Part shown: positions 2,390 to 6,184 of the stretch, in pieces
Position numbering within the stretch: position 1 is the stretch's first letter
Layout: every line of letters begins with the position of its first letter
DNA from: a virus
Reading direction: 5' to 3' (one strand)
Length of the DNA: 30,469 bases
Virus record (IMG/VR): IMGVR_UViG_3300009154_000186
Location: 1 to 30,469 of that record
Translations under genes and position numbers: made by a program
Notes under the pieces: generated by a model
What the model was told of the DNA's origin: nothing
The model's database searches: none
The model's input: only the letters and a program-made list of their open reading frames with translations

Positions 2390-3010
2390 ATGTCACAAGA
2401 TAAAACAACTAACGGTTTGTTTGATTTTCCCAATAGCAGCAGTGGTATTATATCTGCCAAAGCTATTGGGAATATTTATGAATTTTACTTATCAGGCAAT
2501 ATTGAAGAACCTGATGCTTATATAGACTGGTTTGATACTATTCGTCATGCTACACAACGGGATGTTGTTAAAATTTACATAAACAGTTGCGGTGGTGATT
2601 TATATACCGCTATTCAATTTATGCGGGTTTTATATGACACAGATGCCACAGTAGTTTGCAGCGTGGAAGGTGCTTGTATGAGTGCTGCAACCATGATTTT
2701 TATGTGTGCAGACGAACATGAAGTAACACCTCACTCAACTTTTATGTTTCATAACTACAGTGGCGGAACATTTGGTAAGGGCGGTGAAATGATTGACCAA
2801 CTGCATCATGAACGCAAGTGGTCAGCAAAACTAATGGGAGATGTTTACAAGCATTTCCTGTCAGATGAAGAAATAGCCTCTATACTAGATAACAAAGATA
2901 TTTGGATGGATGGTGAGGAAGTTGTTCTAAGAATGAATATTAGACTAGAACAAATTGATTTAGAAATCGAAAAGGAAAACCAAAATGGCAACAAAACCCA
3001 AAAAACCTGA
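2390..3010 (+). CDS. ClpP-like serine protease (S14 family)
   Basis: 206 residues with the ClpP/crotonase fold pattern: an oxyanion/substrate segment INSCGGDLYTA (residues 64-74), catalytic Ser98 in GACMSAATM, catalytic His121 in STFMFHNYSGG, and a downstream Asp in LDNKDIWMDGEE that fits the third triad position. The length matches ClpP. Phage ClpP-like proteins often act as prohead proteases, but no capsid gene is nearby, so the substrate is open; alternatives are a cytosolic protease or a partner of host ClpX. The ATG comes 13 bases after the tRNA-Cys CCA with no Shine-Dalgarno. Confidence 0.85.
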   Translation: MSQDKTTNGLFDFPNSSSGIISAKAIGNIYEFYLSGNIEEPDAYIDWFDTIRHATQRDVVKIYINSCGGDLYTAIQFMRVLYDTDATVVCSVEGACMSAATMIFMCADEHEVTPHSTFMFHNYSGGTFGKGGEMIDQLHHERKWSAKLMGDVYKHFLSDEEIASILDNKDIWMDGEEVVLRMNIRLEQIDLEIEKENQNGNKTQKT

Positions 3011-4721: not shown

Positions 4722-5576
4722 ATGAAAATCGCAGTTTGTTCAGACTTGCACTTAGAGTTTGACACATTAACACTAGAAAATACGGAAAATGCCCAAGTTT
4801 TGATCTTGGGTGGAGATATTTGCGTGGCTGCTGATTTGTTGGTCAGAGACGATGCTGGCATTTTTGACAGATTTGATCGTAGTGCAGCACTACATGAGTT
4901 CTTTCAAATGTGCTGCCGTAACTTTAGTCACGTTGTATATGTTGCTGGCAATCACGAACACTACAATGGTGACTATGCCAAAACTTTTACAATTTTGCGC
5001 GATAGACTGGCTTACTTGCCTAACCTACACATCTTAGACAAACAAACATTTGTGTTAGATGACGTTACCTTTATTGGCGGCACGCTGTGGACTGATATGA
5101 ACAATGAAGATAGTATGACCTTACGTCATATTAAAGGCATGATGAATGACTTTCGTTGTGTTAAAAACAGCAGTCGTGAAGTTAACTTCAAAGACTACGA
5201 AGGTAAGTTTCATACTCGCGCAGCTACCTTTTCACCAGAAGATGCTGTTGTAGATCACAAATTAATGATAGCTTATATTGCTGAAATTATTTTAGGCAAG
5301 TTTGACAAAAAGTTTGTGGTTGTTGGGCATCATGCTCCTAGTAAGGCATCAACTCATCCTCGCTATAAGCACGAAGAATTAATGAATGGTGCTTATAGCA
5401 GCGATCTAGATGACTTTATAATTGATCATCCACAAATCAAATTGTGGACTCATGGTCACACTCATGAAGACTTTGACTATCAAGTTGGCTCAACCAGAGT
5501 AGTTTGCAATCCACGTGGTTACGCAAACTATGAAGATCGTGCTGACAAGTTTCAGTTAAAGTTTGTAGAAGTATAA
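4722..5576 (+). CDS. Calcineurin-like metallophosphoesterase
   Basis: 284 residues with all main motifs of the two-metal phosphoesterase fold: DLHLEF (residues 8-13), LGGDICVA, VAGNHEHY, VVGHHAPS and THGHTHEDFDY. AAGGA precedes the start. The substrate is unknown; these phage enzymes may hydrolyse phosphodiesters or phosphoproteins. It differs from the gp47-like nuclease at 19651, which has an ATPase partner. It ends two bases before the tmRNA acceptor piece, so it may be cotranscribed with it from 4203. Confidence 0.85.
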   Translation: MKIAVCSDLHLEFDTLTLENTENAQVLILGGDICVAADLLVRDDAGIFDRFDRSAALHEFFQMCCRNFSHVVYVAGNHEHYNGDYAKTFTILRDRLAYLPNLHILDKQTFVLDDVTFIGGTLWTDMNNEDSMTLRHIKGMMNDFRCVKNSSREVNFKDYEGKFHTRAATFSPEDAVVDHKLMIAYIAEIILGKFDKKFVVVGHHAPSKASTHPRYKHEELMNGAYSSDLDDFIIDHPQIKLWTHGHTHEDFDYQVGSTRVVCNPRGYANYEDRADKFQLKFVEV

Positions 5577-5578
5577 TT

Positions 5579-5643
5579 TATTGTTGTATGAAGCAACGAG
5601 AACTGTGTCTTGGACGGGGGTGCGAATCCCCCCACCTCCACCA
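5579..5643 (+). ncRNA. ssrA: tmRNA acceptor piece
   Basis: T arm GGGGG/CCCCC around TGCGAAT, acceptor 3' strand CACCTCC, discriminator A and encoded CCA at 5641-5643. The 5' end is set only by the upstream stop codon at 5576; a small GTTG/CAAC hairpin lies at its start. This piece would be charged with alanine. Confidence 0.88.
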
Positions 5644-5721
5644 AAAACGCATCTGCCAGTCGCCCTGGTTGTATGGTACTATTCTAGAAATGAGGTTCAA
5701 GTCCTTTGGTGCGTTTTTGAT
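5644..5721 (+). other. ssrA: tmRNA intervening segment with tRNA-like features
   Basis: This segment joins the two mature ends and should be removed. Its ends pair (AAAAACGCATC with GGTGCGTTTTT). With A5640-T5721 and the acceptor stem this makes one helix of about 20 bp broken only by a C-A mismatch, with CCA inside it. The interior has a tRNA-like T-loop (GAGG, TTCAAGT, CCTT) placed correctly before the 3' strand, but no acceptable anticodon arm, suggesting tRNA ancestry or mimicry for RNase P and 3' processing. Confidence 0.75.
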
Positions 5722-5886
5722 GGGGGTGCATAGTTTCGACAGGGCAAGTAGTAACAGAGTGGACAACACATCAGAGCAGATGTTAAAACTAAACAAAAGT
5801 AAACGCAAACGACTCACAGTTCGCATTAGCAGCTTAAACACTGCTTAGGGTTTCGACAGGTTTCCTCGTAACAGAATAACCTGTCA
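5722..5886 (+). ncRNA. ssrA: tmRNA coding piece with ANDSQFALAA tag
   Basis: It begins GGGGGTGCATAGTTTCGACAGG, a typical tmRNA 5' end. The resume codon is GCA at 5805, after AGTAAAC; the tag is A-N-D-S-Q-F-A-L-A-A with stop TAA at 5835-5837. The last four residues, ALAA, are the usual ClpX-recognised end. The 3' part forms hairpin GACAGGTT/AACCTGTC (5855-5862, 5878-5885), then ATTTTATT, which may define the end or terminate transcription. Confidence 0.92.
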
Positions 5887-5911
5887 TTTTATTAACTAAA
5901 CTAAAGAAAAT

Positions 5912-6184
5912 ATGAAATTTTTAATTTGCCCAATTCCCAGTGATGAAGTAGAGTTTGTTGATTTGCGCTTTACCAGTCCTAAAGGTACTCATTATAGCTA
6001 TGAAGTAGCATATGAAGAAAACGAAATGATTACTATTACAGACACACTTGGACGCAGTGTTCCAATGGATATTTCTGAAGTACCTGCACTGCTTAAAATT
6101 CTAACAAAGATTGTAACTTATCAACATGAAAAACAAAATGTTGATCGAGTGCTGCTGAGTTTTTTAGCTCGGGGCAGTGAGTAA
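5912..6184 (+). CDS. Hypothetical phage protein
   Basis: 90 residues, mixed strand and helix by appearance: a beta-rich N-terminal half (VDLRFTSPKGTHYSYEVAY, then MITITDTLGRSV), a helix around residues 54-72 and an Arg/Leu-rich end. No domain is recognised. It is the first gene after the tmRNA and has a weak AAAGAAA ribosome site. Confidence 0.7.
   Translation: MKFLICPIPSDEVEFVDLRFTSPKGTHYSYEVAYEENEMITITDTLGRSVPMDISEVPALLKILTKIVTYQHEKQNVDRVLLSFLARGSE

Follow-up and report, generated by a model that had tools for sequence, protein, structure and literature searches.

Permuted tmRNA genes of bacteria (alpha- and betaproteobacteria and cyanobacteria; Rfam families RF01849, RF01850, RF01851 and RF04321) place the acceptor half before the coding half, with an intervening segment (ITS) between the two. 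Such genes have already been published for phages (PMC9004378), and the family has been reported to comprise 11,946 unique permuted sequences (PMC11915505). The maturation of the resulting two-piece tmRNA is usually told in one sentence, according to which RNase P and probably tRNase Z process the precursor, as stated in a review that also cites the two-piece maturation of the Caulobacter permuted tmRNA (PMC3985003). In Orientia, Northern blots resolve the precursor together with forms of ~80 nt and ~240 nt, and cleavage takes place in the connecting loop (PMC7335160). For the one-piece pre-tmRNA of E. coli, RNase P generates the 5' end, and RNase III or RNase E, followed by RNase T/PH, the 3' end (PMC3968760).

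Two further systems resemble the locus described here. In the permuted tRNA genes of red and green algae and of Thermofilum, the acceptor stem is likewise closed by the intervening sequence, whose removal is probably the work of RNase P and tRNase Z, but the tRNA halves are then ligated via a circular intermediate, whereas the pieces of tmRNA stay unligated (PMC3978253). The acceptor stem is also extended in RNase P precursors whose leader pairs with the RCCA; at least two such pairs slow the reaction of the E. coli enzyme, yet they are unwound in the active complex (PMC9433436). Unlike in those precursors, the pairing considered here amounts to 12-14 pairs, is continuous with the 3' trailer and covaries.

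A permuted tmRNA gene in a phage fragment

The window, that is, the whole stretch of 30,469 bases analyzed here, is a phage fragment with a tRNA array (ARAGORN) and with genes for a ClpP-like protease, DNA polymerase A, a primase, a helicase, a D5-like regulator, SbcC/SbcD and ribonucleotide reductase, a content which resembles that of T5-like phages and suggests a placement among them. It encodes a circularly permuted (two-piece) tmRNA (Table 1), which matches the Rfam model RF04321 (tmRNA_permuted) over the full model length with 115.5 bits (E 3.8e-22; gathering threshold 47) and the beta_tmRNA model with 109.1 bits, and which ARAGORN reports as tmRNA* (permuted) at 5551-5928 with the tag ANDSQFALAA. 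The acceptor half lies upstream of the coding half, with the ITS between them; the 7-bp acceptor stem has a G-U as its third pair (the alanine identity pair G3-U70) and is followed by the discriminator A and CCA, and the tag frame ends in a Clp-type degron (ANDSQFALAA*). The T-arm, the G-U identity pair, the CCA, the D-loop and the tag frame are shared with the bacterial permuted tmRNAs, from which the gene differs in its longer ITS, with 78 nt after the CCA. As permuted tmRNA in phages and thousands of permuted sequences are already on record, the gene is another member of a known family. Comparable genes occur in the phages Melnitz and Mosig (PMC9004378), in Marzo and its relatives, in Rb1 and in vB_Af_QDWS595; Melnitz carries a glutamine riboswitch with its permuted tmRNA, whereas none was seen in the window in an Rfam scan.

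The ClpP-like gene lies ~2.6 kb upstream of the tmRNA gene, between tRNA genes, such that a phage tag and a protease are found on one contig; the tags of trans-translation are normally Clp substrates. Position 55 of a T-loop is usually U. In the T-loop TGCGAAT of the window (5621-5627) this position is G, as it is in 47 of 77 viral permuted tmRNAs.

Table 1. Features of the permuted tmRNA locus and neighboring genes in the window
Feature	Position	Strand	Basis
ClpP-like protease gene	2390..3010	+	Pfam CLP_protease E 6.5e-11; phrog_1827
Metallophosphoesterase gene, directly upstream of tmRNA	4722..5576	+	PF00149 E 1.9e-9
Permuted tmRNA gene, RF04321-matched core	5582..5837	+	Rfam RF04321; ARAGORN
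T-arm of acceptor piece, GGGGG-TGCGAAT-CCCCC	5616..5632	+	sequence; RF04321 alignment
Acceptor stem 3' strand, CACCTCC	5633..5639	+	sequence, RF04321, fold
Discriminator A and encoded CCA (CCA = 5641-5643)	5640..5643	+	sequence; RF04321 alignment
Extension helix 5' arm: A-T, CxA mismatch, 12 pairs	5640..5653	+	fold; covariation
ITS, 78 nt, predicted to be removed	5644..5721	+	between CCA and acceptor 5' strand
T-arm-like motif TGAGGTTCAAGTCCTTT in ITS, possible tRNA remnant	5691..5707	+	only in window, L114, L121
Extension helix 3' arm, ends UUUUUGAU	5708..5721	+	fold; A(-2)U(-1) before expected RNase P cut
Acceptor stem 5' strand, GGGGGTG	5722..5728	+	sequence; RF04321
D-loop motif GTTTCGAC of tRNA-like domain	5733..5740	+	sequence; RF04321 alignment
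Tag reading frame ANDSQFALAA*	5805..5837	+	ARAGORN coding part

The acceptor stem continues into the intervening segment

The stretch 5633-5728 has the layout CACCTCC-ACCA-(78 nt)-GGGGGTG, from which the mature 3' end of the acceptor piece is expected after 5643 and the 5' end of the coding piece at 5722. Both expected ends lie within a continuous helix. Its base is formed by the seven pairs of the acceptor stem, including the 3:70-type G-U; beyond these follow the pair A5640-T5721, a mismatch of C5641 with A5720, and 12 further pairs of 5642-5653 with 5708-5719, one of which is T-G. The preliminary description of the locus had proposed just such a helix, running from the acceptor stem through the ITS and enclosing the CCA within about 20 bp, and both sequence and fold bear it out: all pairs were found, 20 in total with one mismatch, and the minimum free energy fold of 5633-5728 is identical to it (-36.3 kcal/mol, z -4.5; none of 200 dinucleotide shuffles reached the native energy). 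The extension helix is also present in the fold of the whole gene. A chance hairpin is ruled out by this z score together with covariation above that of shuffled alignments.

The evidence for covariation comes from viral relatives, which were gathered via the neighboring metallophosphoesterase and with patterns that fixed only the tRNA-like parts and left the ITS free, and from bacterial genes obtained by one pattern scan and from a genome sample of the phylum of a Herbaspirillum genome. In an alignment of the arms of 25 distinct phage relatives (A1), 91.0% of the cells are paired, a share that falls to 44-58% once the 3' partner is displaced by 1-3 columns; two-sided, compensatory cells number 31, where shuffles predict 8.1, and the alignment has a covariation score of 0.249, compared with 0.118 after shuffling (reached in 0 of 500 shuffles). 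A separate count of double changes in nine ITS pairs yielded 29 cells in the phage A set (7.5 shuffled), 28 in the phage B set (8.9), 20 in bacteria of beta type (9.8) and 61 in those of alpha type (23.4), none of which was reached in 1000 shuffles; the labels alpha and beta reflect how the samples were drawn rather than a tree, and the shuffle tests on the arms ignore shared ancestry. At the level of sequence comparison, these counts show the pairing of the extension helix to be under selection.

A property of the permuted form

The check on related phages that the preliminary description had proposed did not refute the helix. If the ACCA is counted into its length, the ITS spans at least 28 nt in 74 of 81 distinct viral cases, and 69 of these 74 form an extension helix in register; among 48 distinct bacterial ITS, 44 reach this length and 35 form the helix in register, a count that may be slightly too low because the ends of the ITS may be placed wrongly in a few of the bacterial loci (e.g. 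L170). Beyond C74 the helix extends by a median of 14 pairs in viruses and of 11 in bacteria, to be added to the seven pairs of the acceptor stem. The same ITS pairing is found in the cultured phages Xanthomonas phage Rb1, Stenotrophomonas phage Marzo and Alcaligenes phage vB_Af_QDWS595 and, with two bases bulged out and the register shifted, in Pelagibacter phage Mosig, in all of which the loops are unrelated to that of the window in sequence and length. Even the closest relative (L002), whose neighboring protein is 88% identical, has an unrelated loop of 102 nt and retains the helix.

Is such pairing a general feature of tmRNA precursors? Among 29 distinct one-piece genes from the order of a Herbaspirillum genome, not one has a helix between leader and trailer, and the paired fraction (0.286) compares with 0.312 in shuffled controls. 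This rules out leader-trailer pairing as general to all tmRNA, and the helix thus belongs to the permuted form. This form can nevertheless do without the helix, which is missing from some permuted genes with very short ITS (14-27 nt) and from nine of the 44 bacterial ITS of at least 28 nt. With its presence in most permuted tmRNA genes of phages and bacteria, it is not a one-off of the window and looks like a normal feature of maturation.

Two bacterial loci may be mentioned here. One permuted tmRNA (L193; C7 3477-3808 of G066) has an ITS of 119 nt and no extension of the acceptor stem. A Herbaspirillum genome (G001; L127:853-923) contains a standard tmRNA (C5:36484-36846) in addition to a permuted one (C11:400802-401025), the latter ~2.3 kb from a phage-type integrase, and this permuted copy may reside on a prophage or island.

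The structure lines of the Rfam models RF04321, RF01849 and RF01850 (the general, alpha and beta permuted models) draw the ITS as an unpaired loop, and no mention of the extension helix was found in the literature covered, the scope of which did not extend to Keiler 2000, Gaudin 2002, Sharkady & Williams 2004 and Mao 2009. As a maturation feature of permuted tmRNA the helix is apparently unannotated, and we do not claim its first description. Entering it as pairs would improve the covariance models of the family.

Base pairs around the expected cut sites

In the viral helices, of which 66 were compared, the end proximal to the acceptor stem follows a recurrent pattern. The discriminator A pairs with U(-1) in all of them, C75 pairs with G(-3) in 64, and C74 faces A(-2) in 60, although a mismatch at C74 is expected for three of four bases even without selection. 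Pairs 3-6 beyond the CCA are mostly A-U (88-97% for pairs 3, 5 and 6), and G-C pairs are frequent only from pair 7 onward. A rule by which A73 and C74 are never both paired holds in the phage A set, where full A73-C74-C75 pairing occurs in 1 of 22, and fails in the alphaproteobacterial type (4 of 22) and the beta type (4 of 9; Azoarcus). Given full pairing in these bacterial ITS, the mismatch is a feature of the phage lineages and not a rule of the family.

At N(-2)N(-1), just upstream of the point where RNase P is expected to cut, 63 of 69 helix-bearing viral segments have AU (AT in DNA), and bacterial members are more varied (GC, GU, AU, AC, CU, AA). The optimal leader dinucleotides of the E. 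coli enzyme include A(-2)U(-1), and G(-2)U(-1) or G(-2)G(-1) occurs in 23 of 87 pre-tRNAs of this species (PMC9433436). Together with this dinucleotide, the window provides a 7+5 bp stack of acceptor and T stems, a T-loop and an ACCA, all features of an RNase P substrate, and cleavage by the enzyme is predicted on this basis.

Maturation model and alternatives

What could the helix contribute to maturation? We propose, with a probability of roughly three in four, that it is a conserved clamp which draws both halves together as an acceptor stem, after which tRNA enzymes of the host open and cut it. With the halves encoded in the wrong order, the 3' (acceptor) half would be transcribed first; the arms of the ITS would zip up as a hairpin and lay GGGGGUG onto CACCUCC as soon as it is transcribed, and the precursor would fold into one long helix that rises from the acceptor stem. 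The proximal end of the extension should be weak because of the A-U pair, the CxA mismatch and the A-U-rich pairs beyond the CCA, and it is this end that host RNase P would open, cutting before G5722. A host 3' endonuclease of the RNase E, III or Z/BN type and exonucleases would trim the acceptor piece to its CCA at 5643. The 78-nt loop would be discarded, and the two pieces would stay paired as the working tmRNA, tagging stalled proteins with ANDSQFALAA. The preliminary description had gone further, taking the continuous stem to imply processing unlike that of ordinary CCA-ended precursors. This part is not supported, as the helix is found in most of the sampled bacterial permuted tmRNA genes; since two-piece maturation is known in bacteria and E. 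coli RNase P unwinds leader/RCCA pairing (PMC9433436), ordinary tRNA enzymes suffice in principle, and nothing in the helix calls for an entirely separate way of processing. A conserved helix that holds both mature ends, with an RNase P-friendly dinucleotide at the expected cut, presents a concrete and testable substrate problem.

An alternative would see in the long helix mainly a site for RNase III, which would cut the stem of ~20 bp first and leave RNase P and exonucleases to tidy the ends. The length of the stem in the window, with 20 pairs and a single mismatch, and the median lengths in viruses and bacteria would suit this enzyme, which is moreover among those named for the 3' ends of E. 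coli pre-tmRNA (PMC3968760). However, it is at the RNase P site, rather than at a fixed internal cut point, that the conserved A(-2)U(-1) and the mismatch are located, and arm length and loop vary widely, so that we regard RNase III as unlikely to be what the helix is chiefly for. Still more doubtful is that the arms are kept by descent only, as a functionless pairing in a short, hairpin-forming ITS that is easily retained. Related sequences do share much of their arms, the first four bases of the ITS are fixed as ACCA, and short ITS without a helix exist; yet the loops turn over completely while the arms still pair, double changes exceed those of the shuffles in all four sets (with none of the 500 or 1000 shuffles reaching the observed values), sliding the partner strand destroys the signal, and no such pairing is seen in one-piece genes. 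Covariation largely refutes this reading, which we consider very improbable.

The ITS of the window could also be the remnant of a tRNA that was inserted into the tmRNA, with its T-arm and a 7-bp stem, ACGCATC/GGTGCGT, as the elements cut by RNase P and RNase Z; the CCA would on the same reading be released by a cut in the manner of an upstream tRNA at about 5646/5647. The motif TGAGG-TTCAAGT-CCTTT (5691-5707) indeed adjoins GGTGCGT, ACGCATC begins 3 nt past the CCA, a G-U of the T-stem is replaced by A-U in L121, a weak tRNA-like match (mascRNA, 20 bits) is obtained, and a tRNA-Ala inside the ITS of another permuted tmRNA has been reported (PMC11915505). An intact tRNA was nevertheless not found, either by ARAGORN or with RF00005, which has no match up to E 10 in 5638-5722. 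As to a decayed one, the highest-scoring local alignment to tRNAs reaches 26, and shuffles go up to 25; no other ITS family contains the T-arm motif, and the helices of these families are the same. We thus deem a tRNA origin highly unlikely, if somewhat less so than retention by descent.

Reading frames within the intervening segment

Reading frames in some phage relatives point to the ITS as a site at which phages may carry extra genes. In eight contigs (L274:9648-9852, L275:1948-2152, L279 and five more), an ITS of 179 nt is filled by an open reading frame of 50 aa (MKYKIVVKTGDKTFVK...), which starts at the end of the 5' arm and stops in the 3' arm; a nested frame of this kind is also present in L059:5395-5590. 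For this protein, PHROGs and the phage collection yielded no homologue. Its two most different versions are separated by a dN of 0.19 to 0.22 and a dS of 0.83 to 0.87 (dN/dS about 0.2), and in one pair 20 of 36 differences fall on third positions. Tentatively, and with the odds against it, one may extend the clamp model to a general, selected and undescribed clamp, whose weak hinge lies at the site of RNase P and whose loop phages use as a gene pocket that holds, in some lineages, a real small protein gene. If this were true, there could be mutual exclusion or regulation between tmRNA maturation and the translation of the nested gene. Further candidates are found in other loci. The 196-nt ITS of L292:588-809 contains a frame of 47 aa behind a strong Shine-Dalgarno sequence (AAGGAGG), which encodes one likely membrane span and ends in a UGA of the 3' arm of the extension helix, and shorter frames occur in L268 (26 aa), L257 (22 aa) and L002 (about 32 aa).
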